The notes beneath the pieces were generated by a model. That model was not told the DNA's origin, did no database searches, and was given only the letters and a program-made list of their open reading frames with translations. The position numbers and the translations under genes are program-made. Below, one piece after another: positions 13,731 to 30,388 of a DNA stretch of 41,838 nt (positions are counted from its first letter, which is position 1; each line of letters begins with the position of its first letter). Source of the DNA: Nesterenkonia salmonea (GTDB lineage Bacteria > Actinomycetota > Actinomycetes > Actinomycetales > Micrococcaceae); the NCBI RefSeq assembly GCF_005771525.1, contig NZ_VAVZ01000033.1, forward strand, positions 1-41,838. Direction: 5' to 3'.

Positions 13731-13746
13731 CGGGCCTGCCTCTCTC

Positions 13747-14430: not shown

Positions 14431-14434
14431 GGCG

Positions 14435-14452
14435 GGAGCCCACCTGGGCTCC
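14435..14452 (+). terminator. Hairpin after the asd-PfpI unit
   Basis: GGAGCCCA (14435-14442) and TGGGCTCC (14445-14452) form a perfect 8-bp stem four bases past the stop codon. Only two bases separate the arms, so a slightly opened loop is expected. No U-tract follows, as is frequent in actinobacteria. Confidence 0.6.
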
Positions 14453-14487
14453 AAACTGTTCCCGGAACACGGAAAATTTGACAGACT

Positions 14488-14515
14488 GAGGTGATGGAGA
14501 GACTTACATCACCTC
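14488..14515. promoter_or_regulatory. Perfect inverted repeat over the XRE gene start (possible operator)
   Basis: GAGGTGAT (14488-14495) and ATCACCTC (14508-14515) are perfect inverted copies with a 12-bp spacer, so half-site centres are 20 bp apart, about two helical turns. The repeat covers the putative Shine-Dalgarno and start codon. A consensus TTGACA lies just upstream at 14478-14483. It could be an autorepression operator for a dimeric XRE protein or an RNA hairpin that hides the start. Confidence 0.5.
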
Positions 14516-14811
14516 TGACACCCGATTTGGCTCGCGCCGGTCGCGCCCTGACACGGGTCTCAGTTGAGGTGATCGCTGAGGCCGCCAACCTTGGTAGCCA
14601 GCAGGTCCGCGATTTCGAGCATCGCGGTATCTCTCTGAGCGCAGTAGACAACGACTCTCTGCGTGTTGCGCTGGAAGAGTTCGGTGTGGTTTTCTTCGCA
14701 GAGGATTCCCATGGCGGCTCTGGCGTCCGCCGGAAGCACTCCGCGCTGAAGGTCAGCCAATTGCATAGCTGGGAGGCTGAGGGCGGCCCCGCCTACGAAG
14801 ACGACATCTGA
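14494..14811 (+). CDS. Small XRE-family transcription regulator
   Basis: The product (about 105 residues) carries a Cro/C1-type helix-turn-helix. LTPDLARAGRALTRVSVEVI is helix 1, EAANLGSQQVRDFEHRGIS spans the turn and recognition helix, and SLRVALEEFGVVFF with GGSGVRRK follows, the layout of a common family of small XRE proteins. The C-terminus (SWEAEGGPAYEDDI) is acidic and unassigned. GTG-14491 is an alternative start. A TTGACA at 14478-14483 and a perfect inverted repeat over the start suggest autoregulation. No partner toxin or phage gene is adjacent. Confidence 0.7.
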   Translation: MERLTSPLTPDLARAGRALTRVSVEVIAEAANLGSQQVRDFEHRGISLSAVDNDSLRVALEEFGVVFFAEDSHGGSGVRRKHSALKVSQLHSWEAEGGPAYEDDI

Positions 14812-15178
14812 GGCCTACTACGTGGAGCTACGCGCGCGGGCGTTCGTTGAAGAGCTCCCGGGGGCTGGTGCCGAGCATGGAGGCTAGGGAAGTGCCGGCT
14901 TGAAAGCGCGCCGCAAGATGCGGTGGGGGCGTCGAGAGGTGAACTGGGGAGCCTGTTTCGAACAGGCTAAGAATCAGGGTGTGGTCGTCGGGGGTGGGCA
15001 TGGCCAGCCTTTCTCCATCGGTTCTGGCGTTAGCACCCGGCCTGGGCATTGCAGGATAATCCCGCCCCGGGTTGCTGCGACGTCATCGGGCCAGACCCCT
15101 CAGTCGCTCTGGATGGTTGATTGCTCTGCCACACTAAAGACTCACGTGAACACAAATCAAGAAAAGTGACTTATATGT
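14812..15178. other. 367-bp region without a supported gene
   Basis: This gap separates the XRE gene from the convergent aldo/keto reductase gene. It holds a minus-strand open frame of 73 codons (14828-15049; ends MLGTSPRELFNERPRA) and an overlapping plus-strand frame of 89 codons. Neither has a recognisable family or convincing start signal. A near-perfect palindrome, AGCCTGTT-TCG-AACAGGCT, lies at 14950-14968. GTGAAC and GTTCAC form a longer-range inverted repeat near 15147-15182, by the reductase stop. The region may be remnant sequence or a convergent terminator zone. Confidence 0.4.
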
Positions 15179-16219
15179 TCACATGGAATGGGCTCCGGAT
15201 GCTCGAGGCAAGAGCGCTTCACGGCCTCCGGACACCCACGCTGGCGAGAAACTGCGATCACCGCTCACCTCATCCGCGAGCGCATCCAAAGCGGCCACGA
15301 GCTCAACGCTGAGCTGGCCGTCGAGGCCGGTGAGAAGTTCATCAAGATGCTGAACATAGCGAGTGCCCGGGATGATCGAGAGTTTCAAGTCAGCACCAGC
15401 GGCCTTTGTAAACAGCCAGGCTAGGGCCAGTCCGGGGGTCGGCAGACCGGCATCCGCAGCCATCTGCCTGGCCTTGTTCGCCAACTGGTGATTATGACCA
15501 AGATTCTCTGGCGCGAACCAGGGGAACTTATGCCGAGCGTCGCTCTCCCCCAGCGCCTCGGGATCGAACCTATCTGTGAGAAGCCCGCGCGCCACTGGCG
15601 AGAAGGCGACGAACCCGATACCGAGTTCGGCGCAGGTGGGAATAACGTACTCCTCAACGTCGCGGGCGAAAATGCTCCATTCAGATTGGATCGCGGTGAT
15701 CGGATGCGTCTGATGTGCTCGCCGGATTTCTTGTGCGGTGACCTCGGAGAGCCCGATGCTGCGCACTTTTCCTGCGCTGATCAGCTCCCCGAGGGCTCCC
15801 ACAGATTCTTCAATGGGTACATCCGGGTCTGGTCGATGCAGGTAGTAGAGATCGACGTAGTCGGTGCCAAGCCGCTGCAGCGACAGGTCGATCTGCTCTT
15901 GAATATGCTCTGGGCGGCCATTGACACTGCGCTTGCCGGCCTCACCTTTTGGCTCGATGCCACACTTGGTAGCCAACGTGATGTCATCTCTGCGGCCCTC
16001 AAGGAACCGGCCAAGAATTGTTTCGCTCAGGCCCAAACCGTAGATATTCGCCGTGTCGATGAACGTCACACCACGGTCGTAAATCTCCTGAAGCAGCTTC
16101 AAGGCGGCCGGCTCGTCGATGGGACCGTAGGCCCCCGCGAGCGACATCGCACCGTAGCCGAAGGCGGTAGTGGTCAGTGTTTGACGGCCGGTGCCGAGGT
16201 CAGTGGTGCGCAGCGTCAT
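15179..16219 (-). CDS. Aldo/keto reductase
   Basis: This is an NADPH-dependent oxidoreductase of the AKR13/YakC-like group, which reduces aldehydes or ketones. The 346-residue TIM-barrel product shows the catalytic tetrad: Asp in FIDTANIYG with the nearby Tyr, Lys in LATKCG, and His in YYLHRPDPDVP. Further motifs are GKVRSIGLSEV, QSEWSIFARDVE and the cofactor segment SIIPGTRYVQHLDE. The substrate is unknown. A GAGGGGG ribosome-binding site precedes the ATG. It starts 13 bp after the sulfurtransferase gene on the same strand and is probably co-transcribed. Confidence 0.9.
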   Translation of the reverse strand: MTLRTTDLGTGRQTLTTTAFGYGAMSLAGAYGPIDEPAALKLLQEIYDRGVTFIDTANIYGLGLSETILGRFLEGRRDDITLATKCGIEPKGEAGKRSVNGRPEHIQEQIDLSLQRLGTDYVDLYYLHRPDPDVPIEESVGALGELISAGKVRSIGLSEVTAQEIRRAHQTHPITAIQSEWSIFARDVEEYVIPTCAELGIGFVAFSPVARGLLTDRFDPEALGESDARHKFPWFAPENLGHNHQLANKARQMAADAGLPTPGLALAWLFTKAAGADLKLSIIPGTRYVQHLDELLTGLDGQLSVELVAALDALADEVSGDRSFSPAWVSGGREALLPRASGAHSM

Positions 16220-16232
16220 ATGGTTGGCCCCC

Positions 16233-17114
16233 TCAGCGTCCAGGTTCGCTGCCGACGGCGATGGGCAGCCGCACCGAGTTACCCCATTCGGTCCATGAAC
16301 CGTCGTAGTTGCGGACGTTCTTGTAACCGAGCAAGTGCTTCAGCACGAACCACGTGTGGCTGGACCGCTCACCGATACGGCAATAGGCGATAACATTTTC
16401 CGCCTCGCCCACTCCGGCTTCGTCCTTGTAGATCTGCTCGAGCTCATCACGGGACTTGAAGGTACCGTCGTCGTTGGCTGCCCGCGCCCAGGGCACCGAT
16501 GAGGCCGTGGGGATATGACCACCTCGCAGTGCGCCTTCTTTGTCTTCGAACCCTGGCGCAGAGGTGACTTCACCGGTGTACTCAGCCGGTGAGCGGACAT
16601 CGACCAGCGGTCCGTTTCCGATGTGGGCGAGCACATCTTCACGGAAAGCGCGCCATTGGTCATCATTGCGACGGGCGGGAACAGGGTACTCGGCACGAAC
16701 GGGGGTGGGAACCTCAGTGGTGACTTCCCGGCCCTCGTCGATCCATTTCTGACGTCCACCATCGAGCAGTCGGAGATCATGATGACCGAACAACGTGAAG
16801 ACCCAGAGCGCATAAGCCGCCCACCAGTTGGATTTGTCACCGTAGAAAACCAACGTGGTGTCGGGAGTGATGCCCTTGGAGCCAACGAACTCAGCGAACT
16901 GTTGTTCATTGATGAAGTCCCGAGCGACTGAATCATTGAGATCGGTGTGCCAGTCGATCTTGATGGCTCCGGGGATGTGCCCTGTTTCGTAGAGAAGCAC
17001 ATCTTCATTGGACTCCAACACCACCACATTGGGGTCATCTTTGTGCTCTGCGAGCCATTCGGTGCTCACAAGAGCATTCGGGTTGGCGTACTGCATCAGA
17101 TCCTTAGTCATCAT
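16233..17114 (-). CDS. Thiosulfate sulfurtransferase (CysA2/rhodanese type)
   Basis: The two-domain rhodanese transfers sulfane sulfur, typically from thiosulfate to cyanide or other acceptors. The 293-residue product has an inactive N-terminal domain ([28 protein letters not shown]) and an active C-terminal one ([12 protein letters not shown]). The catalytic loop is [20 protein letters not shown], with Cys245 as nucleophile. This CRIGERSSH loop matches mycobacterial CysA2/CysA3 and Corynebacterium homologues. A GAGAGGCAGG site precedes the ATG at 17114. It is transcribed away from a second sulfurtransferase gene, and their starts are 135 bp apart. Confidence 0.92.
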
Positions 17115-17236
17115 GGCCTGCCTCTCAGTTGGGTTGCCTTCAATGTGTCACAGCGGACACAACAACATGCATCCACGTTAACGTCCATGACAATCCCTGC
17201 CCCGGCCCCAGAGAAATCGGAGATCAGGGAGCCTTG

Positions 17237-17242
17237 TAAAGT
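17237..17242 (+). promoter_or_regulatory. Leaderless -10 (TAAAGT) of the mercaptopyruvate sulfurtransferase gene
   Basis: TAAAGT ends seven bases before the ATG at 17250. It supports that start over the in-frame ATG at 17187. Confidence 0.5.
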
Positions 17243-17249
17243 CAGTGGG

Positions 17250-18092
17250 ATGGACCCTCTGATTACTGCCGAAGAATTGCACGGGTTAGTATCCTCGAAT
17301 TCATCCAACCTGCGGATTCTGGATGTGCGCTGGAAACTGGGGCGCGCCGATGGCAGGTCGGAGTACATTCACCGCCATCTGCCAGGTGCGGTGTACGTGG
17401 ATATGGACACTGAACTATCCGAACCCGGCCGTCCAGCACATGAAGGCCGGCATCCGCTGCCGTCCTTGGAACGCCTTCAAGCGGCCGCTCGCCGGTGGGG
17501 ACTCCACGACGGTGACACGGTCGTGGTCTACGACGACGCGAAGAACACCTCCTCAGCGCGAGCCTGGTGGCTCTTGCGTCACGCTGGTCTCTCTAATGTT
17601 CGAGTCCTCGACGGCGCTTTGGCCAGTTGGATCCGCGCCGGGTACCCCGTTGAAACAGGTGAGGTCCACCCGACGTCCGGCACCGTCTCCCTGCGCTACG
17701 GAACCCTGCAATACCTGACCATGGCCGACGCCGCCGAGTTCAGACAGCGTGGCACACTGCTGGATACCCGCGCCTCCGAACGCTACACCGGCGAGAGTGA
17801 GCCCTACGACCCCAGGCCAGGGCATATTCCCGGGGCAGTGAATGCCCCCACCACGGGCAATGTGGATGAAGCGGGCCACTTCCTCGCACCCGCGGACCTG
17901 CGCAGCCGATTCCTACAGGTCGGGGTAGACCCGGAGAGGCCTGTCGCAAGCTACTGCGGATCGGGCATCAACGGCTGCCACTCCACGCTGGCATTGGAGA
18001 TCGCCGGCTTCGAGGCCGTGCTGTACCCAGGGTCCTTCAGCCAGTGGTCCAACAATCCAGACCGTCCTGTGGTGCAAGGGGACAATCCCTGA
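17250..18092 (+). CDS. sseA: 3-mercaptopyruvate sulfurtransferase
   Basis: The product probably moves sulfur from 3-mercaptopyruvate to thiol acceptors or cyanide. It is a 280-residue two-domain rhodanese. The N-terminal domain has ILDVRW, HLPGAVYVDMDTEL and RVLDGALASWIRAGYPVE. The C-terminal domain has LLDTRASERYTGESEPYDP, GHIPGAVNAPT and the active loop YCGSGINGCHSTLALEIAG with Cys236. A CGSG(I/V) loop is the hallmark of mercaptopyruvate enzymes, in contrast to the CRIGERSSH loop of the divergent neighbour. Open frame continues far upstream, but ATG-17250 fits the family start and a leaderless promoter. Confidence 0.9.
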   Translation: MDPLITAEELHGLVSSNSSNLRILDVRWKLGRADGRSEYIHRHLPGAVYVDMDTELSEPGRPAHEGRHPLPSLERLQAAARRWGLHDGDTVVVYDDAKNTSSARAWWLLRHAGLSNVRVLDGALASWIRAGYPVETGEVHPTSGTVSLRYGTLQYLTMADAAEFRQRGTLLDTRASERYTGESEPYDPRPGHIPGAVNAPTTGNVDEAGHFLAPADLRSRFLQVGVDPERPVASYCGSGINGCHSTLALEIAGFEAVLYPGSFSQWSNNPDRPVVQGDNP

Positions 18093-18103: not shown

Positions 18104-18730
18104 ATGAGCGCCACGCATCACATTCCAGGAATTCCTTTTCCACTGACCGCCTCCGAAGACTCCACATGGACTGTGGACCCTTCCGAGAAGTCCGTGAAAG
18201 TCAATGCGGCACCGCGCAGCGATATCTTTGTTGATCCGGGTTCTGACGGCCAGGTGGGCGCGGAGACACTTCTCAATGCCGCCACTTTGCTGGCAGACCT
18301 GCCAGACGGTGACTTCCAATTCAGCGCGCGGGTATCGGTGGACTTCCTCGCCATGTTCGATGCTGGTGTGCTTCTGCTCTGGATGGACGAACGGCACTGG
18401 GCAAAGCTGTGCTTCGAGTACTCCCCAGAGGGCGAGCCGATGGTCGTTTCGGTGGTCACCCGGGAGGTCTCCGATGATGCCAACTCCTTCACCGTCCACG
18501 GCGGGAGCATCTGGTTGCGCGTGTCCCGGACTGATGGTGTCTACGCCTATCACGCCTCCAACGATGCGCAGACCTGGCGCCTGGTGCGGATCTTCGTTCT
18601 TGACGCCCCGGGCAGTACCGCACAGATCGGTTTTGAAGCCCAGTCACCGACTGGAGATGGCTGTGCCGTGACATTCAGCCAGCCTAACTTCTCCACCCAA
18701 CGTCTGGCGCACTTCCGCGACGGCAGGTGA
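18104..18730 (+). CDS. DUF1349 domain-containing protein
   Basis: The 208-residue product matches DUF1349, a beta-sandwich of the concanavalin A-like lectin/glucanase superfamily. Supporting segments are FQFSARVSVDFLAMFDAGVL, LLWMDERHWAKLCFEYSP, VVSVVTREVSDDAN, WLRVSRTDGVYAYHASNDAQ and a C-terminal IGFEAQSPTGDGCAVTFSQ. No signal peptide is seen, so a cytoplasmic location is likely. The biochemical role of the family is not established. A GAGGGGAAG ribosome-binding site sits before the ATG. It follows sseA by 11 bp and is probably in the same transcript. Confidence 0.85.
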   Translation: MSATHHIPGIPFPLTASEDSTWTVDPSEKSVKVNAAPRSDIFVDPGSDGQVGAETLLNAATLLADLPDGDFQFSARVSVDFLAMFDAGVLLLWMDERHWAKLCFEYSPEGEPMVVSVVTREVSDDANSFTVHGGSIWLRVSRTDGVYAYHASNDAQTWRLVRIFVLDAPGSTAQIGFEAQSPTGDGCAVTFSQPNFSTQRLAHFRDGR

Positions 18731-18755: not shown

Positions 18756-20531
18756 TCAGAACAGGCCGATGACCTGGCCCTCGGCGTCGATGTCGATGTT
18801 CTCTGCTGCGGGGTTCGCCCCCAGCCCGGGCATGGTCTGAATGGTTCCGCAGATGGGGTAGACGAACCCTGCCCCAGCAGACAGCCGCACTTCTCGGACC
18901 GGGAGCCGCCATCCGCGCGGCGCCCCCACCAGTTTCGGGTCCGCGGACAGCGACAGGTGCGTCTTAGCTACACACACCGGCAGCCGACCGTACCCGGCCT
19001 CTGTGTAGGCGGTGAGATCCTTGGCAGCCCGGGGGGAAAGGTCGACCCCGTCCGCCCCGTAGACCTCGGTGGCGATGGTCTCAATCTTCTCAACCAGCGA
19101 TTCTTCGTCCCGGTACAGAAGACGGAACGCTTCAGGTTCCTCAGCGGCCTCCGCCACCGCGTCTGCAAGTTCGAGTGCCCCGGCACCGCCGTCGGCAAAG
19201 TGCGTGGAGACTGCGCACCGGGCGCCTTCTTCGGCGGCGACCTGCGCGATCACCTCATGCTCGCTGGCAAAGTCGGTGGGGAAGGCGTTGATGGCTACCA
19301 CAGGGGTGACGCCGTGCCGGCGGATGATGCCCAGCTGGGCGCGCAGATTCTCGGCCCCTTCGCGGACCTCCTCCGGGCTCTCCTTCAGCATCTCCTCTGG
19401 CAGAGGCCTCCCGGCAACCACCCGGTGCCGACCTGAGTGCACTTTGAGCGCGCGAACGGTGGCCACCACCACCGCGGCGTCCGGGGACAGCCCCGAGACC
19501 CGGCATTTGATGTTGAAGAACCGTTCGGCTCCCATATCCGCAGCGAAGCCCGCCTCGGTGATCAGGTAGTCCGCAGTGCGCACTCCGATCAGGTCTGCCA
19601 CCACTGAGGAGTTCCCGGTGGCGATATTGCCGAAGGGCCCGCAGTGCACCAGCGCTGGCGTGTGTTCCACAGTCTGCAGCAGGTTTGGCTGGAGCGCTTC
19701 CCGCAGCAAGACGGTCATCGCCCCGGCAGCCTTGATGTCCTCGGCTGTGACAGGTTCACCGTCCCCGGTGGTGCCCACCACAATCCGCCCCAACCGGTCG
19801 CGCAGCTCCTCCAGCGAGCGCGCAAGTGACAAGGTGGCCATGACTTCGGATGCTGCGGTGATGTCGAACCCTGACTGCTGGAGGGGTCCGTTCGACGCCG
19901 CCCCTCCACCGGCAGGGCCCATCCCGGTGACGATCTGCCGCAGTGAGCGGTCGTTGACGTCCATCACCCGCCGCCAGGTCACCCGTTCCGGATGCAGACC
20001 GGAAGGGCTGCCGCGGTGCAGATGATTGTCAACCATGGCGGCCAACTGGTTGTGGGCGGCAGTGACAGCGTGCAGGTCCCCCGTGAGGTGCAGATTCAGC
20101 CGTTCCATGGGCACCACCTGGCTCCAACCTCCTCCGGTGCCACCGCCCTTGATCCCCAAAGTGGGACCCAGGGAGGGCTGCCGGACCGCGATGGTGGCCC
20201 GACGCCCAGATTTTTGCAGTCCTTGCCCAAGGCCTACGGCGGTGGTGGTCTTGCCCTCTCCCAACGGTGTTGGGGTGATGGCAGTGACCAGGATGTACTT
20301 CCCCGCCGGACAGTCAGCGAGCCGGCCGATCGCCGCCAAGTCCACTTTTGCCACTCCGCGCCCATAGGGTTCGATGAGGTCTTCGGCGAGGCCCATCGCT
20401 GCACTGATCTCATGAATCGGCCGCAGCTGTGTCCTGGCGGAGATTCCAAGACTGTCCTGAGCGGTCAGCGTCAGACTCGGCTGCTCGCCGGGGCCCCTGT
20501 CGCTTGTGGAGTGGGCCGTTGCGGTCATCAA
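18756..20531 (-). CDS. fhs: Formate-tetrahydrofolate ligase
   Basis: Fhs interconverts formate + THF + ATP and 10-formyl-THF + ADP + Pi. In a catabolic setting it can run backwards and yield ATP. The 591-residue product has the P-loop TPLGEGKTT (88-96), RQPSLGPTLGIKGGGTGGGW, EVMATLSLARSLEEL, PFGNIATGNSSV, TEAGFAADMGAERFFNIKCR and the C-terminal TIQTMPGLGANPAAENID, all typical. The N-terminus is about 30 residues longer than many homologues. Its ATG overlaps the metF stop (ATGA), so translation is coupled to the THF-dependent methyl-oxidation operon. The last gene is convergent with the DUF1349 gene. Confidence 0.96.
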   Translation of the reverse strand: MMTATAHSTSDRGPGEQPSLTLTAQDSLGISARTQLRPIHEISAAMGLAEDLIEPYGRGVAKVDLAAIGRLADCPAGKYILVTAITPTPLGEGKTTTAVGLGQGLQKSGRRATIAVRQPSLGPTLGIKGGGTGGGWSQVVPMERLNLHLTGDLHAVTAAHNQLAAMVDNHLHRGSPSGLHPERVTWRRVMDVNDRSLRQIVTGMGPAGGGAASNGPLQQSGFDITAASEVMATLSLARSLEELRDRLGRIVVGTTGDGEPVTAEDIKAAGAMTVLLREALQPNLLQTVEHTPALVHCGPFGNIATGNSSVVADLIGVRTADYLITEAGFAADMGAERFFNIKCRVSGLSPDAAVVVATVRALKVHSGRHRVVAGRPLPEEMLKESPEEVREGAENLRAQLGIIRRHGVTPVVAINAFPTDFASEHEVIAQVAAEEGARCAVSTHFADGGAGALELADAVAEAAEEPEAFRLLYRDEESLVEKIETIATEVYGADGVDLSPRAAKDLTAYTEAGYGRLPVCVAKTHLSLSADPKLVGAPRGWRLPVREVRLSAGAGFVYPICGTIQTMPGLGANPAAENIDIDAEGQVIGLF

Positions 20532-21430
20532 TGATCTCCCTCTTCGAGCCAGGTCAGCAGTCGTTGCCGCCAGATTTCCGTCTCTTTTAGCGCGTTGAAG
20601 GTGTACAGGTGAAGACCGGAGACGACGTCGCCTTTGCTCACCAGACCTGCCACCAGCGGTGTGGGATCGAAATGGCCGGAAGTGGCCAACCGCATGGCCA
20701 GGCCAGCCTTGCCGGATGCGAGAAAACGCAGAGAATCCCCGACGCCGATCCTCCCGGCGATGCGAAGAAGCCGCGCTGAGCCCACCGCGCCGGGAACACC
20801 GGCATACACCGGGAGGTTCACGCCGCGGGCACGGAGCCCTGTGGCCCAGTCGCTTACCGTCTGCGGGTCGAAGCAGAGCTGACCTACCACGCAGGAGGCC
20901 CTTTCGGCCTTCTGCGTGAGGGACTCATCAAGAGTTCGCTGGGAGATCTTGGGGTGCCCCTCCGGGTAGCCCGGCACACCGAGTTTCAGCTCAGGTGCCA
21001 GCCGGTGCACAGCTGCCAGGAGCTCCCAACCACTGGCAAATGCGGCATCTTGGGAGGCGGTCCCCTTGCCCCGCGAGGCCAGTCCATCCGCTTGGTCTCC
21101 GCCGACCACGAACACTTCCTGGATCCCTGCAGCCTGCAGACGGCCCATGGTGTGAGGAAGTGAACCCACCCGATGTTGAGTGGCCGCAAGGTGCGGCACC
21201 GCCCGGAAACCCTGACTGGCGAGGTCTTCTGTGGTCTCAAGCGTGGGGCCGGGTCCTCGAGTCGGTGAGGCTGTGATGGTGACGGTGGCGCCGACAGGCA
21301 GGTGGGCGACGGCGTCGTCGACGATCCCGTCCAACGGCAGCACCTCAAACCGGGGGTGGGCCAGCAGTTGACGCAGGGCGTGCCGGTGGGCCGGGGACAC
21401 CAGGGAGTCAGCGGGCAGCTTGGGATTCAC
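20528..21430 (-). CDS. metF: MetF-family methylenetetrahydrofolate reductase
   Basis: The family is a flavin TIM barrel interconverting 5-methyl-THF and 5,10-methylene-THF. The 300-residue product has FEVLPL (Glu29 in the catalytic Glu position), VTITASPTRGPGPTL, AVPHLAATQH, the FAD/folate segment VFVVGGDQADG, VPGYPEGHPKIS, QLCFDPQ, PVYAGVPGAV and LHLYTFNALKET. It resembles the divergent MetF group found beside THF-dependent demethylases more than biosynthetic MetF. Its place between a DmdA-like gene and fhs suggests it runs in the oxidative direction. The start is GTG, 12 bp after the upstream stop, with a GAGGGCG site; the stop overlaps the fhs start by 4 bp. Confidence 0.88.
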   Translation of the reverse strand: MNPKLPADSLVSPAHRHALRQLLAHPRFEVLPLDGIVDDAVAHLPVGATVTITASPTRGPGPTLETTEDLASQGFRAVPHLAATQHRVGSLPHTMGRLQAAGIQEVFVVGGDQADGLASRGKGTASQDAAFASGWELLAAVHRLAPELKLGVPGYPEGHPKISQRTLDESLTQKAERASCVVGQLCFDPQTVSDWATGLRARGVNLPVYAGVPGAVGSARLLRIAGRIGVGDSLRFLASGKAGLAMRLATSGHFDPTPLVAGLVSKGDVVSGLHLYTFNALKETEIWRQRLLTWLEEGDH

Positions 21431-21442
21431 TGGTGGGCGCCC

Positions 21443-22693
21443 TCAGGTCCCCGTGAGCAGGTGACCGTTGCCGGCGTCGAAAGACTGTTTGGGGATGTTC
21501 TTGGTGGGATCGACGAACGGCTTTGGCACCACCACTGCGGGTACCGCTCCGGAGGGTGTCTCGATCTCCAGCTCGGTGCCGGTTTCACTGAGACCGACAG
21601 GCACCATGGCGTAGCCGATGTTCCGCTCCAGACGCGGGGAGAAGCAGGCGGAGGTGACCTCTCCGACTCTGTGTCCGCTGCGCCAGACGGGGAAGGCTTC
21701 GATCATTGAGCCATCGTTGAAGGTGCCCAGCGCGGGTCCTCCTATAGTCACGCCGGCAAGCCTTCGGGTGACGCCCTCCTGTTTGATGCGCCTCAGCGCG
21801 TCCTTACCGATGAAGTCCGCCTCCTGGTTCAGGTCTACCATCCAGTCATACCCCATACCTACCTCGAACGGATTGGTCTGGTAGGTGATGTCGCAGCCGT
21901 GGGCGAGAATTCCGGCTTCGATTCTGCGCATGTGGCAGGGCCCTATGACCTTCATTCCGAAAGGTTCACCAGCGGCCCACACCGTATCCCAGAGCCGAAC
22001 GCCCTCACGTGAGGCGTTCTTGACGTAGATTTCGAAGCCCAGTTCGGCGGTGTAGCCGGTCCGGGAGACGATGACCTCCATACCGTCCAGCGTGTACTCC
22101 CTGAGCCGGTAGTAGCCGATGTCGAGTACTTCTGGGCCGAAGATCGCGGCCATGACTTTCCCCGAAAGCGGCCCCTGGACTTGCACGGGGCCGACGTCAG
22201 CCTCCTCGATCGTGACGTCCATACCGGAGTTGTGCGCCAACCCGCGGGCCCAGAGAAGGATGTCACTGTCAGCCAAGGAGAGCCAGAAGTGGTTCTGGCC
22301 CAGACGCAGCAGAACAGGGTCATTGAGGATCCCTCCGTCTTCAGCGGTCAGAAAGACGTACTTGCACTGGCCGACCTCGCATTTGTTGAGATCACGGGGC
22401 ACAAGCATGTTCGTGAAGGCGAAGGCGTCGGGTCCGGTGATTTCGATTTGCCTCTCGACGCCCACATCCCACAGCGTCACGCCCTGGAGCAGCGCCCAGT
22501 ATTCGGCCACCGGATCACCGTAGTGCCGCGGGTGGTAGGTGTGGTTATAGACGCTGTACATCGCTACGCCGTGGCGGCGGGACGCCCAGAAGAAGGGGGA
22601 TTTGCGGAGCCGGGGATACAGAAGGATCCGGGGGTCCGGGATGACGGCTTCGGCGCCGTCGGAACTGGCAAGCGTTTCCGTGTTGAGGGTCAT
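21443..22693 (-). CDS. DmdA/GcvT-like THF-dependent methyltransferase (demethylase)
   Basis: This 416-residue protein of the GcvT fold probably transfers a methyl or methylene group from a small methylated compound to THF. Segments such as ALLQGVTLWDVGVERQIEI, MLVPRDLNKCEVGQCKYV, LADSDILLWARGLA, VGPVQVQGPLSGKVMAAIFG and NPFEVGMGYDWMVDL closely recall DmdA (dimethylsulfoniopropionate demethylase) of marine bacteria and are less like glycine-cleavage GcvT. Possible substrates include DMSP, glycine betaine, dimethylglycine or another N-, O- or S-methyl compound; the sequence does not settle this. There is no gcvH or gcvP nearby, which argues against glycine cleavage. An AGGGAGG site precedes the ATG. 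It is the first gene of the operon with metF and fhs, divergent from an IclR regulator. Confidence 0.75.
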   Translation of the reverse strand: MTLNTETLASSDGAEAVIPDPRILLYPRLRKSPFFWASRRHGVAMYSVYNHTYHPRHYGDPVAEYWALLQGVTLWDVGVERQIEITGPDAFAFTNMLVPRDLNKCEVGQCKYVFLTAEDGGILNDPVLLRLGQNHFWLSLADSDILLWARGLAHNSGMDVTIEEADVGPVQVQGPLSGKVMAAIFGPEVLDIGYYRLREYTLDGMEVIVSRTGYTAELGFEIYVKNASREGVRLWDTVWAAGEPFGMKVIGPCHMRRIEAGILAHGCDITYQTNPFEVGMGYDWMVDLNQEADFIGKDALRRIKQEGVTRRLAGVTIGGPALGTFNDGSMIEAFPVWRSGHRVGEVTSACFSPRLERNIGYAMVPVGLSETGTELEIETPSGAVPAVVVPKPFVDPTKNIPKQSFDAGNGHLLTGT

Positions 22694-22741
22694 GAGAGCC
22701 TCCCTGCTGTCACATCATCGGAACACTTCCAGCATGACATT

Positions 22742-22781
22742 GTGTCGCGTATCACGCAATAGGTTGCACCATGCGCGACAC
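22742..22781. promoter_or_regulatory. 40-bp imperfect palindrome between the IclR gene and the C1 operon (probable operator)
   Basis: Counting outward from 22761/22762, 14 of 20 base pairs are complementary. GTGTCGCG (22742-22749) mirrors CGCGACAC (22774-22781), AT mirrors AT, and GCAA (22756-22759) mirrors TTGC (22764-22767). It is centred about 65-70 bp from both divergent start codons. This is the expected place and size for an IclR-family operator controlling both directions. Confidence 0.65.
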
Positions 22782-22825
22782 TGACGCTTGCCATACAGGC
22801 CCCCAACCGGCATGCTCAACACATC

Positions 22826-23632
22826 ATGAGTACCGAAACCACACCCTCCACCCCCTTCGCAGACTCTCCGGTGAAGTCCGTTGACCGCGCCCTCACGATC
22901 TTGAGCATCTTGGCACGCGAGGGTGAGACCAGTCTCAGCCGGATGGCCCGGGAGCTGGGGGTGCACAAGTCCACCGTGGGGCGCCTTGTCGGGACGCTTG
23001 TGCGCCACGACCTCGTAGAAGCTCCTGATGGTTCCGGCGGGTACCGGCTCGGTGTCGGTTGTCTGCGCCTAGCAGGCGCCACGGCCACGCGATTGGATCT
23101 CAGCGTGGAGGCCCAACCGGTGTGTGATGAGCTTTCGGCGGAAATTGGGGAGACCACTACGGTGGCCGTCACCCGCGACGGCGTCGCGATCAATGTTTGT
23201 CAGTCCGAGGGCAGCAGTACAGTCGCGATGCGCAACTGGATTGGCCAGCACACCGCCCTGCACGCAACGTCGAATGGGAAAGTGCTGCTGGCTCACCTTC
23301 CGGAGGAGGAGCGCACGGCCCTGCTTGGCGCTGGCCTGACTGGCTTCACTGAGCATACGCTGATCTGCCCCGAGGCGCTCGCCGAGGAGCTCCACAGCAT
23401 CCGCAGCCAAGGCTGGGCGTTCGCCGTGGAGGAATTTGAGGAGGGACTCAACGCGGTCGCTGCCCCGGTGTTCGACCACAGTGGCAGAGTTGTCGCCGGC
23501 ATCAGCGTCGCCGGACCCTCCTATCGGCTACCGCCGGCCAGGCTTCCGCTGGTTCGCGAGTCGGTGATCCGTGCTGCTGGGGCCCTGTCCCGTCGACTCG
23601 GGTATAGGGGCAACCCCATCACTGAGCAATGA
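22826..23632 (+). CDS. IclR-family transcription regulator
   Basis: The 268-residue product has an N-terminal winged helix (VKSVDRALTILSILAREGET, LSRMARELGVHKSTVGRLVG) followed by GYRLGVGCLRLAG. The C-terminal IclR effector domain includes HATSNGKVLLAHLPEEERTALL, GWAFAVEEFEEGLNAVAAPVFDHSG and AGISVAGPSYRLP. IclR proteins usually regulate an adjacent catabolic operon in response to a small carboxylate or methylated compound. It is divergent from the DmdA-like/metF/fhs operon and convergent with the dimethylglycine-oxidase-like gene. It is flanked by a 40-bp palindrome that it most likely binds. Confidence 0.9.
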   Translation: MSTETTPSTPFADSPVKSVDRALTILSILAREGETSLSRMARELGVHKSTVGRLVGTLVRHDLVEAPDGSGGYRLGVGCLRLAGATATRLDLSVEAQPVCDELSAEIGETTTVAVTRDGVAINVCQSEGSSTVAMRNWIGQHTALHATSNGKVLLAHLPEEERTALLGAGLTGFTEHTLICPEALAEELHSIRSQGWAFAVEEFEEGLNAVAAPVFDHSGRVVAGISVAGPSYRLPPARLPLVRESVIRAAGALSRRLGYRGNPITEQ

Positions 23633-23675
23633 CCCTCTCTGGTCTGGTGACTGCGCTGTAGCGCGCGAGAACTCG

Positions 23676-26243
23676 TCAATTTTTGACTCGATCATGCTCC
23701 GGGTCGAAAGGCGCCGTCCGGCCCACTGCTAACACCTCGGCTGGAAGCAACGTCCCTAGGTACTCGACCTGCAGCCGGGTGCCGAGGACTGCCCGCTCCG
23801 GTGGCAGGTAGGCAAGCATGATGTAGCGACCCAACGACGGCGCCGGCCCTGCGCTAGTGACATAGCTGCGCCGCCCTCGGCCATCCACCAGGGGTGAGCC
23901 CTCGTCGTCTAAGACGGGCTCATTTCCGCTGGGGAACCGGGGTCCGGCAACCCCTCCCCCTCTGAGGGCCAAAGTGCACAGCACCGCTGCCGGCTCCTGG
24001 ACTCGTGCCGTCAAGTAGGCGTCCCTGCCCAGGAAGTCAGCGTCCTTAACCTTCGGAAGGGCAAGACCGGCTTCTACTGGGTCGCGATCCGGGGCGAGCT
24101 CAGCCCCGAAGAGCCTGTGCGCCTTCTCCAACCGTCCAGTTGTGCCGTACACCCCTGCCCCAGCAGCGATGAGCCCCTCCGGTCGGCCGGCTTCCCATAG
24201 GGCGTCCCACAGCGCCAGGCCGTGCTCCACCGGCAAGTGGATCTCCCATCCGAGATCACCCACATAGGAGATGCGAACCATCAGCGTGGGAATTCCAGCG
24301 AGCACTACGTCCCGGGCTGTGCCAAATCGGAAGCCTTCATGGGAAACGTCATCGTCGGTCAGTCTCTGCACAATACTGCGAGCCTGGGGCCCCCAGAGTC
24401 CTATCGCGCAGGTAGCCGAGGTCATGTCATGGATCACCACGCGACCCTCATCGAGTTCAGCCCCCAGATGGCGGCGGAACCAGGCGAGGTCGCGAGCGCC
24501 GTCGGCTGCTCCCGTGATGACCCGGAAATGCTGCTGTGCCAGCCGCACAATGGTCAGGTCGGAACGGAACCCGCCTCGGACATCAAGCAGCGGAGTGTAG
24601 ATGACCCGGCCCACAGCACGGTCCACATTGGCCATGGCCAGCCGCTGCACTCCGTCCAGGGCACCGGCGCCGTAGATGTCGATGACGGTGAATGAGCTGA
24701 GATCGAACATCGCAGCCCTTTCCCTCATGGCCAGATGCTCAGCTTCAATAATTGGTGACCACCAGCGGGAGTCCCACTCGTGGACCCGGTGATCGATGCG
24801 TCCTGCGTACTCAGCGATCAGGGGCGCGTTGGCCGCGTACCACTGAGGGCGTTCCCAACCGGAGACCTCGAAGTACTCCCCGCCGAGGGCATGCGTGCGT
24901 GGGTGGAACGGACTGGTGCGCATCGGGCGGCTACTGGTCCACTGCTCTCGCGGGTGCGCGATTCCATAGACTTTGGGGAAGCCCTCTGCCGCGCGGGCAC
25001 GGACATGGCGTCGCGTCCTCCCGTGTGGGGAGACGCGGGTGATGTCGGCACCGTGGATGTCCACCTCGGGGGCGCCGTCAGTCATCCATTCGGCCAGCGC
25101 GCGCCCCACGCCTGGTCCTTCCTTGATCCACACAGCGGCCGCCGACCACAGTCCCTGAACTTCTGCAGTTTCTCCCACCAGTGGAGCACCGTCGGCGGTC
25201 AGGGACAACAGTCCGTTGATCGCTTGGGTGACCTCGACGCCGTCGCGGCTGTGTTGACCGAGTAGTTCGGGGTAGAGCTGCCGGGCGTGGGCTAGCTGCG
25301 TCGCGAAGTCTTGCTCGGTGAAGGGCATCTGAGTCGGCGAGTTCTGGCCCGGGGCCCCCAGCGGGGGGATCTCAGTGGGCTCATGCAGGATCGGCCGGTG
25401 TGCGTATGAGCCCAGCTCCAAGTCGGGTCCCCGCTGGCGGGCATACATGCGGGCGTCCATATCGCGGACCAATGGCACCGAGATCCACTCCTCAGTGGCT
25501 GCGAGCTCAGGGATTGGGCCAAGGTCAAGCATCTGGTGGACGGCTGGCACCAATGGGATGTTCGCCCCTGCGAGGGCGGCAATCTGTGGGCTCCACACGC
25601 CGCAGGCAATAACGACGTATTCAGCCTCGACCCTGCCGCGGTCGGTTTCTACTGCACGGATTCGGCCCCTGAGGCCACCGTGCGGCTCGGCATCGACCTC
25701 AAGCCCAGTGACCTCGGTGCAGTCAGCGACCTGCAGGGCGCCTAAGCCCAGAGCCCGGGTTCTCATCAGTTCACCGGCACGCACAGCGTCGACGATCGCA
25801 CCGGTGGGGGTATGGAATCCGGCGAGCAGCAGATCCTCCCGGATCCAAGGCATGAGATTTTTCACCTGTGCCGGACTGATCACCTCGGCATCGATTCCCC
25901 AGGCGGTCGCCGAGGTCATTCGCCGGCGCAGCTCCTGGAGACGCTCCGGCGTGCGCGCAACCTCGATGCCACCGCATTGGGTCAGTACTCCGAGTGCGGT
26001 GTACTGGCGGATCGAGTCCAGAGTGAGTTCGGTGATCTCCTTGGAGTGGTCCACCGGGAAGACAAAGTTCGACGCGTGGTCGGTGGAGCCTCCGGGTTCA
26101 GGCAGAGGCCCCTTGTCGATCAACAGGATATCCCGCCACCCTAGTTCGGCTAGGTGACGGACAATAGAGCTGCCGACAATACCCGCCCCGATGACAACAA
26201 CGTGTGCCCGGTCAGGAAGATTTTCCATCGCTCTCACCACCAT
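23676..26243 (-). CDS. Dimethylglycine oxidase/dehydrogenase-like flavoprotein with folate domain
   Basis: The 855-residue product has the two-part layout of Arthrobacter dimethylglycine oxidase. The N-terminal half is a DAO-type FAD domain with VVVIGAGIVGSSIVRHLAEL and GGSTDHAS, whose His56 is the likely covalent FAD attachment site, then YVVIACGVWSPQIAAL. A GcvT-like THF domain follows with MFDLSSFTVIDIYG, VIHDMTSATCAIGLWGPQAR (Asp606 in the expected catalytic position) and ISYVGDLGWEIHLPVEHGLAL. Such enzymes oxidatively demethylate dimethylglycine or sarcosine and trap the formaldehyde unit as methylene-THF. The exact N-methyl substrate is not proven. ATG-26228 is an alternative start. It is a separate unit from the fhs operon, convergent with iclR. 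Confidence 0.82.
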   Translation of the reverse strand: MVVRAMENLPDRAHVVVIGAGIVGSSIVRHLAELGWRDILLIDKGPLPEPGGSTDHASNFVFPVDHSKEITELTLDSIRQYTALGVLTQCGGIEVARTPERLQELRRRMTSATAWGIDAEVISPAQVKNLMPWIREDLLLAGFHTPTGAIVDAVRAGELMRTRALGLGALQVADCTEVTGLEVDAEPHGGLRGRIRAVETDRGRVEAEYVVIACGVWSPQIAALAGANIPLVPAVHQMLDLGPIPELAATEEWISVPLVRDMDARMYARQRGPDLELGSYAHRPILHEPTEIPPLGAPGQNSPTQMPFTEQDFATQLAHARQLYPELLGQHSRDGVEVTQAINGLLSLTADGAPLVGETAEVQGLWSAAAVWIKEGPGVGRALAEWMTDGAPEVDIHGADITRVSPHGRTRRHVRARAAEGFPKVYGIAHPREQWTSSRPMRTSPFHPRTHALGGEYFEVSGWERPQWYAANAPLIAEYAGRIDHRVHEWDSRWWSPIIEAEHLAMRERAAMFDLSSFTVIDIYGAGALDGVQRLAMANVDRAVGRVIYTPLLDVRGGFRSDLTIVRLAQQHFRVITGAADGARDLAWFRRHLGAELDEGRVVIHDMTSATCAIGLWGPQARSIVQRLTDDDVSHEGFRFGTARDVVLAGIPTLMVRISYVGDLGWEIHLPVEHGLALWDALWEAGRPEGLIAAGAGVYGTTGRLEKAHRLFGAELAPDRDPVEAGLALPKVKDADFLGRDAYLTARVQEPAAVLCTLALRGGGVAGPRFPSGNEPVLDDEGSPLVDGRGRRSYVTSAGPAPSLGRYIMLAYLPPERAVLGTRLQVEYLGTLLPAEVLAVGRTAPFDPEHDRVKN

Positions 26244-27611: not shown

Positions 27612-28289
27612 TTAGCGCCGCAGGACCTTTCGTGCGGCAAGGTTGCCGAGGATCTGCAACAGATGCACCATGACGATCACTGCGGCCACAGCCAGCCAGG
27701 TCACTTCCGGACGGAACCGCTGGTAGCCCTCCACGATCGCGAAGTTGCCCAGTCCACCTCCGCCGACGATCCCAGCCAGGGCGGACATATCGATCATGGC
27801 GATGATCACGAAGGTGAAGCCGAGGATCAACGGCCCGAAAGCTTCCGGCAAAATGACCGTGAAGATAATCCGAGTCCGTGAAGCACCCATGGCACGTGCT
27901 GCTTCTATCACTCCGGGGTCAATGGTGACCAAGTTCTGCTCCACGATCCGCGCAATACCGAAGCTGGAGGCCCACACCATGGCGTGGATCACTGCAGTAT
28001 TTCCGATACCGGTCCCGAGCATGCTGATGGTCACCGGTTGCAGGGCGGCAATGAGGATGATGAACGGTATCGGGCGGATGGTGTTGACCAGGAAGTTCAC
28101 CGTCCAAAACACTGGGGCGTTTGCCAATAGACCGCCGGCCCGTGTGGTGTAGAGCAGCAGACCCAGCGTCAAGCCGATCCAAGCAGAAATTGCGAAGGCG
28201 AAGACGACCATCTGGATGGTCTCACCGAGTGCGTCAAACAGCTCAGGACCGTAGTAGTCCCAGTCGAGGTTCCGGTATGTATCAATCAT
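27612..28289 (-). CDS. metI: Methionine ABC transporter permease
   Basis: MetI forms the membrane channel of the methionine importer. The 225-residue product has five or more membrane segments and the MetI hallmark VNTIRPIPFIILIAALQPVT. It also has GTAVIHAMVWAS-like (here GNTAVIHAMVWAS), the EAA coupling loop EAARAMGASRTRIIF, and the C-terminal ALAGIVGGGGLGNFAIVEGY with RFRPEV. Its start overlaps the metN stop by 4 bp, giving translational coupling. It is last in the metQ-metN-metI order and is followed by a strong hairpin. Confidence 0.94.
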   Translation of the reverse strand: MIDTYRNLDWDYYGPELFDALGETIQMVVFAFAISAWIGLTLGLLLYTTRAGGLLANAPVFWTVNFLVNTIRPIPFIILIAALQPVTISMLGTGIGNTAVIHAMVWASSFGIARIVEQNLVTIDPGVIEAARAMGASRTRIIFTVILPEAFGPLILGFTFVIIAMIDMSALAGIVGGGGLGNFAIVEGYQRFRPEVTWLAVAAVIVMVHLLQILGNLAARKVLRR

Positions 28290-29365
28290 CGCGGCACCTC
28301 TTCCCCGTCTCTGACCTCTTGGACTGGAGTGGCAGCTTTCATCGTCTCCACGAATCTCTGCACTGCGTGGTGCTCTCCCTCCAGGGCGAGAGTGAGCAGC
28401 CCGAAGCTCGCGTTCTTGGTGGTGTTCATGCCGCCGTGGACGATTTCGAATGCGACGCCGTGTTCTGCTGCTCGACCCAGCACGCTGCCTACCGCTGACG
28501 AGTCTTTCAGTGAGACCGTGACGAGCCTGCCTGTGGTGTGCTGACGAATCCGGCCGATGTCCTCCGGCGTCGGCCTATCCTTCAGCGCCGAACCGACAAA
28601 GGTGACCTCGCCGTCGTCGCGGGGGTTGGAGAAAATGTCGTATACCCGGCCTTCTTCGATGATCTTCCCTTTGTCCATGACAGCCACCCGGTCTGCAATA
28701 GACCGGATGACTTCCATCTCATGGGTAATGGCCACGATGGTGATACCAAGTTCCTCATTGGCTCTGCGCAGCAGTCGCAACACCTCCCCTGTGGTGGAGG
28801 GGTCCAGTGCTGAGGTGGACTCATCAGCGAGAAGAACGTCCGGTTTGACCGCCAAGGCGCGGGCGATGCCGACCCTCTGCTTCTGACCACCGGAGAGCTG
28901 CTCGGGGAAAGCCTTGGCCTTATCTGCCAATCCGACGAATTCCAGCAGTTCGTGGACTCTGCGCTCACGATCGGCTTTCCCCCAGCCCGCCACTCGCAGC
29001 GGGTAGGCGACGTTGCCAGCCACGTTGCGTGACTGAAACAGGTTGAACTGCTGAAAGACCATTCCGATGCGTGACCTCACATGGCGCAGCTTAGACTCGG
29101 AGAGGCCCGACACCTCATGGCCGAGCACGGTGATGATGCCGGAGGTTGGCCGTTCAAGTCCGTTGATCAGGCGAATCAGAGTGGATTTTCCGGCCCCCGA
29201 GAAGCCGATGACTCCGTAGACCTCCCCCTTGTCGACAGTGAAGGAGACATCATCTACGGCGGTGACCGCGGATCCCCTTCCACTGCTGAATCTGCGCGTC
29301 ACATGGCGGAACTCAATGAGTGGGTCTCCGCCGGCGCGAGCATCAGTGGTGCCGTCTGTGCTCAC
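28286..29365 (-). CDS. metN: Methionine ABC transporter ATP-binding protein
   Basis: MetN powers D/L-methionine uptake. The 359-residue product has Walker A GFSGAGKST, the Q-loop [10 protein letters not shown], signature LSGGQKQRVGIARAL and Walker B VLLADESTSALDP with H-loop VAITHEM. A C-terminal NIL/ACT-like domain of about 75 residues (RLVTVSLKDSSAVG to LLTLALEGEHHAVQRFVE) in MetN homologues binds methionine and inhibits transport when it is abundant. The start is GTG at 29365, with AAAGGAAAG just upstream. It is 60 bp from the metQ stop and overlaps metI. Confidence 0.95.
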   Translation of the reverse strand: MSTDGTTDARAGGDPLIEFRHVTRRFSSGRGSAVTAVDDVSFTVDKGEVYGVIGFSGAGKSTLIRLINGLERPTSGIITVLGHEVSGLSESKLRHVRSRIGMVFQQFNLFQSRNVAGNVAYPLRVAGWGKADRERRVHELLEFVGLADKAKAFPEQLSGGQKQRVGIARALAVKPDVLLADESTSALDPSTTGEVLRLLRRANEELGITIVAITHEMEVIRSIADRVAVMDKGKIIEEGRVYDIFSNPRDDGEVTFVGSALKDRPTPEDIGRIRQHTTGRLVTVSLKDSSAVGSVLGRAAEHGVAFEIVHGGMNTTKNASFGLLTLALEGEHHAVQRFVETMKAATPVQEVRDGEEVPR

Positions 29366-29425
29366 TTCTTTCCTTTCCTTGGTGCCGGTGTGATGGGCTG
29401 AGATGGGCAGTCCCAGTCCGTGGTC

Positions 29426-30319
29426 TTAGTCCTCGTTGCTCAACGCTTCTTCATAGTCCGTGAGTGCTTCACGCAGCTCTTCTGCGGTGACATCATCCAC
29501 GGGAACGGATGTTCCGTTGGAGCGCTCGTCCATGATGTCGAGGACGCGTTCGTCGTGGTAGAGGGATGCGATCTCTTGGAGAGCTTCATTGTCAACGTCT
29601 GCTTCGCGGACTGCGAAGGTGTTGATATACGGGAATGCGGCCGGGTCGGAAGCGTCATCGGAAAAGATGCCGTCGTTGAGCGGGTCGAGATCAGCGTCTT
29701 GGGCGAAGTTGTTGTTGATGACCGAACCCTCGACTGACTGCAGAGCGTTGACGGTCTGCGCCGCGTCCACCGGCTGCACCTCCACGGTGGAGGCTTCCTC
29801 GTCTATGTGCCTCGGCTCAGGCTGAGACGTCTCCTCGGACAGTTCGAGTAGGTCAGCGGCGACGAGGACGTTGATGGCACGCCCTTGGTTCACCGCGTCG
29901 TTGGGAATCGCAATGGTGTCGCCCTGCTCGAACTCACTCACATCGCTGTATTCGTTGGAGTAGAGAGTCAGGGGAACAATCTCAGTGGGCCCGATCGGCA
30001 ACAGGTTGTCGCCCGTGCCTGTGTTGTGCTCAGCGAGGTAGGCAATGTGCTGGAACCAGTTGGCATCCAGGTCTCCAGCAGCCAACGCGGGATTAACTTC
30101 CGGGTAGGTGGAGAAGTTGACGAGCTCGATCTCGTAGCCGTACTCCTCCTCAGCGATTCTTGCCAATTCCCGGTGTGCCTCATGCTCGTTGGCGACACCG
30201 ATGGTGAAGGAGGTCTGATCTTCTGGGATGGCGTCACCGCCTTCTTCCTGACCGCATGCGGTGAGGCTGAATGCCAGGGCGGCGATCAATGCCGTTGATG
30301 TGGTGATGCGAGTAATCAT
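29426..30319 (-). CDS. metQ: Methionine-binding lipoprotein
   Basis: MetQ delivers methionine to MetNI from the outer face of the membrane. The 297-residue product has a lipoprotein signal peptide (ITTSTALIAALAFSLTACG, lipid-modified Cys22), then the NlpA/MetQ features VANEHEAHRELARI, LVNFSTYPEVNPALAAGDLD, ANWFQHIAYL, AIPNDAVNQGRAINVL and VINNNFAQDADL. It is unusually acidic, with few lysines and arginines. The open frame extends eight codons upstream, but ATG-30319 has an AAGGAG site at proper spacing and starts the signal peptide. First gene of the operon; a structured non-coding region lies upstream. Confidence 0.94.
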   Translation of the reverse strand: MITRITTSTALIAALAFSLTACGQEEGGDAIPEDQTSFTIGVANEHEAHRELARIAEEEYGYEIELVNFSTYPEVNPALAAGDLDANWFQHIAYLAEHNTGTGDNLLPIGPTEIVPLTLYSNEYSDVSEFEQGDTIAIPNDAVNQGRAINVLVAADLLELSEETSQPEPRHIDEEASTVEVQPVDAAQTVNALQSVEGSVINNNFAQDADLDPLNDGIFSDDASDPAAFPYINTFAVREADVDNEALQEIASLYHDERVLDIMDERSNGTSVPVDDVTAEELREALTDYEEALSNED

Positions 30320-30388
30320 GGGGGTGTCTCCTTGTGTGGGCATGCAGATCGGCAGGCATGGGTCGCCGGCCGCTCACGTGAATGAGAG

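Follow-up and report, generated by a model that had tools for sequence, protein, structure and literature searches.

A DmdA-like gene cluster of Nesterenkonia salmonea as a likely betaine:tetrahydrofolate methyltransferase module

Results

We analysed a 41,838-nt stretch of the actinobacterium Nesterenkonia salmonea (NZ_VAVZ01000033.1, assembly GCF_005771525.1), hereafter the window, which is one contig (C68) of a 3.28-Mb assembly of 140 contigs that is 98.5% complete. It carries five grouped genes coding for a DmdA-like tetrahydrofolate (THF) methyltransferase of 416 amino acids, a short MetF-like methylene-THF reductase, formate--THF ligase (Fhs), an IclR-family regulator and a flavoprotein resembling dimethylglycine oxidase (DMGO). 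With somewhat better than even confidence we read this cluster as serving the catabolism of a quaternary-ammonium osmolyte, for which glycine betaine is the most likely candidate. The cluster is real and conserved, and it is most likely a betaine:THF methyltransferase module. A sequence-only reading of the window had located the same five genes; the list of open reading frames (ORFs) gives the same positions, and the grouping is real.

Identity of the methyltransferase

The best match of the 416-residue protein among solved structures is DmdA of P. ubique (3tfh, E 1.1e-67), with trimethylamine N-oxide demethylase (7.3e-44) and GcvT (3e-41) behind it. The protein shares the GCV_T and GCV_T_C domains with the glycine-cleavage protein and might on this ground be a spare GcvT, but it stays below the cut-offs of both GcvT models (PRK00389, 183.8 bits, cut-off 300; TIGR00528, 139.1 bits, cut-off 235.85). 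Moreover, the genome has its own GcvT on contig C49, which scores 308 bits with PF01571 versus 152 bits for the window protein. In a tree of 108 rows, built by a quick method with SH-aLRT support only and with very long outgroup branches, the DmdA-like rows stand apart from this GcvT, from a SoxA C-terminus and from the C-terminus of the window's DMGO-like protein (support 98). GcvT identity was rejected on family scores and tree alike and is practically out of the question, and the earlier assignment as DmdA-like rather than GcvT holds, there being no clustering with glycine-cleavage GcvT. LigM (43.5 bits, cut-off 580) and DesA (59.5 bits, cut-off 800) were likewise rejected, with scores far under their cut-offs.

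The closeness to P. ubique DmdA raises the question of whether the protein is DmdA proper and the locus serves the use of dimethylsulfoniopropionate (DMSP). Its best NCBIfam match is indeed the DMSP demethylase model PRK12486; the score of 340.8 bits, however, lies under the cut-off of 410. In the tree the protein belongs to a clade of 16 rows (support 95), separate from the 26-row clade that includes DmdA of Phaeobacter and Marinovum (support 99). A DMSP-specific tryptophan, W171, is described in the consulted part of PMC7487153 and would correspond to the P. ubique residue aligned here. Of 97 locus rows, 14 have tryptophan in this column, as do two plasmid-borne aminomethyltransferases (AMTs); the window protein has tyrosine. 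This residue cannot rule DMSP in or out, because the annotated Roseobacteraceae DmdA of Phaeobacter and Marinovum share the tyrosine. None of dmdB, dmdC and dmdD was found among the ten window proteins named by the family scan, unlike in Phaeobacter, and DMGO-like genes appear as partners instead. By scores and tree the protein is neither GcvT nor a DMSP demethylase proper and falls in a clade of its own; with separate clade, missed cut-off and no dmdBCD among those ten proteins, DMSP is unlikely as the substrate, and an identity as DmdA proper seems to us very improbable.

Direction of the one-carbon flux

A profile search of the genome for MTHFR matches the short MetF alone. It exceeds the Pfam gathering score of 24 and is divergent, reaching 65.7 bits with the NCBIfam model fadh2 (cut-off 293.7). 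In most bacteria these two enzymes, MetF and Fhs, serve biosynthesis, and as the sole MTHFR match this enzyme could also serve methyl supply: MetF would work reductively, or betaine-derived methyl-THF would feed methionine synthesis, and Fhs would provide formyl-THF for purines. A 367-residue MetE-like frame on contig C91 (131 bits) would suit such a role. Against it, neither the MetH activation domain (Met_synt_B12) nor a full-length MetE was matched in the genome, where PF01717 detects only the C91 frame and a weak match of 31.8 bits; the window furthermore encodes a lipoprotein resembling MetQ together with ABC partners. According to the part of PMC7005905 consulted, Dehalococcoides has a characterised single-domain MetE that did not use methyl-THF. 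Since both kinds of methionine synthase are missing, methyl-THF has no evident outlet other than oxidation by MetF, and methyl-THF made here is probably oxidised through this enzyme; biosynthetic supply is thus a decidedly unlikely explanation. From known enzymology, Fhs would then run toward formate and ATP. Similar logic is given for metF/folD/fhs of SAR11 (PMC3160333, in part) and for MetF2 of Ruegeria on betaine (PMC12478193, in part). The oxidative direction that the sequence-only reading had proposed for MetF is therefore the likeliest one. As a side observation, the strain may need methionine, given the MetQ-type importer of the window and the lack of both MetH activation domain and full-length MetE in the genome.

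Conservation of the gene neighbourhood

Searching 297 genomes of the strain's own order at E≤1e-60 yielded a DmdA-like gene in 28 of them, 12 belonging to a close family (the window protein and others 68–79% identical to it) and 16 to a subfamily of 41–48% identity. Named genomes were scanned for the best 80 of 592 relatives, a sample that leans to close ones. A table of neighbours made with tblastn covers 96 of the 101 loci, L036, L101, L111, L113 and L127 being omitted for want of a usable DmdA-like row. The 57 loci of at least 64% identity (window included) were reduced to 51 with at least 10 kb of sequence by removing the duplicates L062, L066 and L073 and the short L086, L092 and L103. 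MetF accompanies the DmdA-like gene in 40 of these 51 loci, another MetF type in two, and Fhs in 33. A DMGO-like gene is present in 40 loci (21 of the window's own type, hereafter W-type, nine canonical and 10 of the Halomonas type). Regulators are of the IclR family in 25 cases and GbdR-like in 10; SoxA or SoxB occurs in 10 loci and electron-transfer flavoprotein (ETF) genes in 11. No Rieske gene was found in any of the 51 neighbourhoods, and weak FchA-like matches appeared in two (29.8 bits, cut-off 275). Eight loci have no DMGO, Sox or ETF neighbour, and every gene named above is missing from the neighbourhoods of the Arthrobacter loci L077 and L079.

The grouping recurs with differing gene order in Actinomycetota and in Halomonas-type Gammaproteobacteria. 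The W-type DMGO gene (at least 53% identity, up to three candidates scored per genome) is carried by 21 of the 28 order genomes with a DmdA-like gene and by four of the 269 without (Fisher 1.7e-22, uncorrected for relatedness). Because of this co-occurrence and the recurrence with differing gene order, the grouping goes beyond chance, so that the survey supports the five-gene neighbourhood proposed earlier as a conserved one. The type of the next enzyme varies over the methyltransferase tree, which argues that the methyltransferase may have kept its substrate while its partner was exchanged. Two features of the surroundings were judged incidental, namely the flanks of the Brachybacterium group (P450, GTP diphosphokinase-like and epimerase genes) and the presence of glyoxylate genes close to some members of the 41–48% subfamily.

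Types of the DMGO-like flavoprotein

All four domains DAO, FAO_M, GCV_T and GCV_T_C are present in the window's DMGO-like protein, and DMGO (1pj5) is its best solved structure (E 1.5e-155). Two residues with a role in A. globiformis DMGO, His225 and Tyr259, are conserved and align to H236 and Y267. W-type proteins are 53–70% identical among themselves in the order, as against 35–43% to other DMGO-like proteins, and differ in the motif GSTDHASNFVFPVDHSKEIT. With canonical DMGO encoded next to GbcA-like genes they share about 36–40% identity, and the window protein lies outside the subgroup of canonical DMGO that adjoins GbcA-like or sox genes. Among the 51 loci, ETF genes (the family was named in L045) occur beside the W-type only, in 11 of 21 cases, for example at 16343–18336 of L072 and in 10 other loci of at least 64% identity; this company suggests that the W-type may be a dehydrogenase rather than an oxidase. 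In L034 (genome G200, 13180–15749) the W-type gene appears to lie in two pieces, owing to a frameshift or a sequencing error.

Gene context in relatives and the substrate class

Regarding the substrate, the relatives' gene contexts support the earlier suggestion of a betaine-type osmolyte. In Nocardiopsis potens (76% identical) a divergent MetF2 is followed by the dmdA-like gene, canonical DMGO, soxB, soxA, soxG and IclR. In Saccharopolyspora and Actinopolyspora (72–74%) sox genes, in several cases with GntR, precede DMGO (uncalled in L055), dmdA-like, MetF and Fhs. Genome G069 (79%) has dmdA-like and fhs next to sdaA, soxB, soxA, soxG and purU, each scoring above its cut-off, with a GbcA-like Rieske protein and a canonical-type DMGO encoded 11–14 kb away. 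Ten Halomonas-type loci show the order fhs, GbdR-like, DMGO-like and dmdA-like, followed by metF in eight; with the GbdR model, whose cut-off is 480, the L076 regulator reaches 441 bits (E 2.8e-132), and the regulators of the other loci match it by tblastn. Transport genes point the same way: a ProW-like permease and an OpuAC binding protein lie directly upstream of dmdA-like and metF in a Gaiellaceae metagenome-assembled genome (MAG; 68%), OpuAC is near in L105 (65%), and ProV exceeds its cut-off in L098 (57%).

Haloarchaeal plasmids encode proteins 40–44% identical to the window protein, and the Haladaptatus protein is 58% identical to that of L045, from the order's second subfamily. The Salinigranum plasmid carries BCCT, ilvA, two long FAD oxidoreductases, folP, fhs, FolD, AMT and MetF, and the Haladaptatus plasmid formate dehydrogenase, fhs, folP, AMT, glyA, MetF, two DMGO-like genes and ilvA. 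Plasmids of Haloarcula and Halorientalis are partly similar, the former also with a ring-hydroxylating oxygenase and BCCT and the latter with ETF. DMGO likeness was verified for both Haladaptatus flavoproteins and for one of Haloarcula. Two DMGO-like enzymes, glyA and an ammonia-lyase would fit a path from betaine over dimethylglycine, sarcosine, glycine and serine to pyruvate. DMGO-like and BCCT genes of haloarchaea were taken as a hint of betaine use in PMC3102087, in whose consulted part the AMT is unmentioned.

Some loci in other lineages were noted in passing. In L108 (9986–14556), a contig from a euryarchaeal MAG, three DmdA-like genes lie near each other. On the SAR86 contig L127 (18–5901) a DmdA-like gene is accompanied by a partial MetF-like frame and, divergently, by a second betaine-type AMT adjoining a Halomonas-type DMGO, with MetF and types read by eye. 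In the marine alphaproteobacterial loci L111 (6498–11176) and L113 (6447–11176), a ureohydrolase-like gene, a sarcosine-dehydrogenase-like flavoprotein and AMT lie in a row (named by eye).

Evidence against glycine betaine, and proline betaine as a possible alternative

The strain's own genome contains six BCCT matches, some of them partial, and lacks GbcA, since Ring_hydroxyl_A (PF00848) finds no match; nor was a GbcA-like protein found at 1e-60. Several observations weigh against glycine betaine as the substrate. Neither SoxA (TIGR01372, 1e-200, two candidates scored) nor monomeric sarcosine oxidase (TIGR01377, 1e-20) was detected in this genome, and its only four GCV_T proteins offer no further candidate for sarcosine. 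With no sarcosine enzyme of the kinds searched, betaine-derived sarcosine would have no known outlet in the strain. Seven of the 12 close-family order genomes, the window's included, lack both a GbcA-like protein and SoxA. Sox genes were seen in the available flanks of none of 21 W-type DMGO genes, compared with seven of nine canonical ones, and four order genomes carry the W-type without a DmdA-like gene. In two Halomonas genomes GbcA exceeds its cut-off of 670 (818 and 846.5 bits), and GbcA-like proteins exist in genomes G069, G118 and G090; in all these carriers the DmdA-like gene would be superfluous. In the 41–48% subfamily GbcA-like proteins (1e-60) are present in all 16 genomes and SoxA in 15. 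Lastly, the neighbours of a Phaeobacter homologue (54%) are genes for OsmC, enoyl-CoA hydratase and acyl-CoA synthetase, and the substrate therefore differs within the wider family.

On two Roseobacteraceae plasmids, L184 (9968–14046) and L189 (7971–12118), Lrp, AMT, OsmC, enoyl-CoA hydratase and acyl-CoA synthetase genes follow each other. These AMTs are 53–54% identical to the window protein, have tryptophan at the P. ubique column, and look like part of another methylated-acid demethylation cluster.

All ten Halomonas-type genomes give a Ring_hydroxyl_A match at 3e-37 or better; of three such proteins scanned, the third (L146) has no close GbcA match. The domain is wholly missing in 13 of 40 tested carriers of the DmdA-like gene, Actinopolyspora being one example. 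A mutual exclusion of GbcA and the DmdA-like gene is refuted by their co-occurrence in Halomonas, G069, G118, G090 and the 41–48% subfamily, and over the 297 genomes the Fisher values for the close family are 0.40 against GbcA-like proteins and 0.067 against SoxA.

Either the W-type would handle both dimethylglycine and sarcosine, or sarcosine would be disposed of otherwise, or the substrate would be proline betaine (stachydrine) or a similar dimethyl betaine. In the last case the DmdA-like enzyme would take one methyl group and the W-type the second, leaving proline, and no sarcosine oxidase would be needed. The seven genomes without GbcA-like protein and SoxA, the absence of sox neighbours beside the W-type and its distance from canonical DMGO all suit this alternative, as does a Xaa-Pro dipeptidase-like gene in L049 (222.4 bits, cut-off 500); proline betaine, too, is transported by systems of the BCCT and ProU types. 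On the other hand, close orthologues (72–76%) sit with canonical DMGO and glycine-making sox genes, haloarchaeal clusters contain glyA and/or an ammonia-lyase, and among the minority of neighbours that were scanned, none was named as a gene of proline catabolism. We regard proline betaine as an unlikely but serious contender and retain glycine betaine as the favoured substrate.

Layout of the locus

The features are listed in Table 1. The dmdA-like, metF-like and fhs genes are tightly packed, with no space for promoters between them. The gap of 12 bp between dmdA-like and metF is as first reported; the 4-bp overlap of metF and fhs stands only with a TTG start of fhs at 20531 (591 amino acids, 18756–20531, minus strand, in the ORF list) and shrinks to one base with the in-frame ATG at 20528 (TGATG junction), which is the likelier start. 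The DMGO-like gene must have its own promoter or use that of the gene upstream. The nearest NCBIfam model of the IclR protein is BhcR (184.8 bits, under the cut-off of 350). Within 22694–22825 a promoter scan found no sigma-70-like site, no perfect inverted repeat with 6-base arms was found, and an IclR operator common to both presumed promoters was sought without result. Neither gcvP nor gcvH is among the ten window proteins named by family scan, no separate window search having been made. FolD is encoded outside the window, as had been noted, on contig C86 by profile search.

Table 1. Features of the cluster in the window
Feature	Coordinates	Strand	Evidence
fhs, formate--tetrahydrofolate ligase, 590 aa	18756..20528	-	from ATG; 762.7 bits with NCBIfam PRK13505 (cut-off 652)
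Short MetF-like methylene-THF reductase, 300 aa	20528..21430	-	Pfam MTHFR 55.7 bits; nearest solved structure 7xg9, E 4.5e-19
DmdA-like THF methyltransferase, 416 aa (proposed betaine:THF methyltransferase)	21443..22693	-	GCV_T + GCV_T_C; 3tfh E 1.1e-67
Divergent intergenic region, 132 bases, presumed regulatory	22694..22825	.	read from sequence
IclR-family regulator, divergent from dmdA-like	22826..23632	+	HTH_IclR + IclR_C
DMGO-like FAD + THF enzyme, 855 aa, W-type (motif GSTDHASNFVFPVDHSKEIT)	23676..26243	-	1pj5; DAO, FAO_M, GCV_T, GCV_T_C; type by motif

Further genes were seen around the cluster. The MetQ-like lipoprotein, ABC ATPase and permease genes (27612–30343) have a methionine-importer layout and lie beside a MurB-like gene, ATPase and permease being read by eye; a tblastn match to a ProV query inside the window is probably this methionine-type ATPase. 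Just downstream of fhs are two divergent rhodanese genes resembling 3-mercaptopyruvate sulfurtransferase (16233–17114 and 17187–18092, under the family cut-off) and, next to them, a DUF1349 gene (18104–18730). An ORF of 381 amino acids (5472–6617) gives a partial PF01571 match of 56 bits and appears by eye to be a YgfZ-type folate-binding protein.

Discussion

In the proposed pathway the DmdA-like enzyme would transfer one methyl group of betaine to THF without oxygen or cobalamin, yielding dimethylglycine and 5-methyl-THF. The short MetF, running in reverse, would oxidise the latter to 5,10-methylene-THF, a direction consistent with the missing kinds of methyl-THF-using methionine synthase. 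FolD, encoded elsewhere in the genome, would lead on to 10-formyl-THF and Fhs in reverse to formate and ATP. The W-type flavoprotein would remove the next methyl group, from dimethylglycine, in the form of methylene-THF, with electrons perhaps going to ETF, as the neighbours in related loci suggest, and IclR would govern the divergent promoter. More tentatively, we propose a further betaine route, a corrinoid-free and oxygen-independent betaine:THF methyltransferase of DmdA fold common to actinobacteria, Halomonas and haloarchaea. In genomes such as the present one, in which no GbcA, no sarcosine oxidase and no methionine synthase that uses methyl-THF was found, all three methyl groups would be transferred to THF by the DmdA-like enzyme together with a single W-type flavoprotein, and their oxidation through reversed MetF, FolD and Fhs would yield ATP. 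This joint proposal is possible but doubtful.

Glycine betaine is a very abundant osmolyte. If the proposal is true, a one-enzyme route free of cobalamin and oxygen would explain betaine use without GbcAB, BHMT or MtgBCD in actinobacteria, halophiles and haloarchaea, and some proteins annotated as GcvT or ‘aminomethyltransferase’ would be betaine demethylases. No experimental assignment of a DmdA-like enzyme to glycine betaine was found in the literature searched, mostly outside subscription journals. A GcvT-fold enzyme for betaine is not a wholly new idea: in the consulted part of PMC3160333, SAR11_1303, which lies near the opuABC betaine transporter genes, is postulated to act in glycine betaine metabolism, and SAR11_1265, adjoining metF and close to DmdA, is speculated to remove the second methyl group in DMSP degradation. 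Both metF and SAR11_1265 are among the genes with changed expression under sulfur limitation in PMC5069961, as far as consulted. What this analysis adds is the description of modules in actinobacteria, Halomonas and haloarchaea, together with the types of DMGO and the lack of a methionine synthase.

Compared with these SAR11 proteins, by description rather than alignment, the window protein is similarly a DmdA-related AMT next to metF (as SAR11_1265), with the parallel of an AMT by opuABC (SAR11_1303); it belongs to another lineage, and no module of Fhs, DMGO and IclR is described for SAR11 in the consulted text. With DmdA itself (3tfh; Phaeobacter, Marinovum) it shares the domain family, the NDPV motif, an expected redox-neutral methyl transfer to THF and the logic of coupling to MetF, whereas it falls in a separate clade under the model cut-off and has DMGO, Fhs and IclR or GbdR-like partners in place of dmdBCD. 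The O-demethylases LigM and DesA, which work with MetF and LigH, share the logic of THF methyltransferase, MetF and Fhs, with 7xg9 as the solved MetF nearest to that of the window, and differ in family, as their scores indicate. The Arthrobacter genes glyA-soxBDAG-sdaA-purU and DMGO (PMC3534580, in part), from a strain that grows on glycine betaine although its pathway is listed as incomplete from the genome, likewise stand for DMGO-type, THF-linked demethylations, but no DmdA-like gene is described in the part consulted. Finally, the consulted parts of PMC12478193 and PMC12093977 name GbcAB, BHMT and MtgBCD as three enzyme systems for the first demethylation of betaine. All convert betaine to dimethylglycine, and MtgBCD also ends on THF with a dedicated, co-induced MetF2; in contrast to them, a single corrinoid-free, oxygen-independent enzyme of GcvT fold is proposed here.

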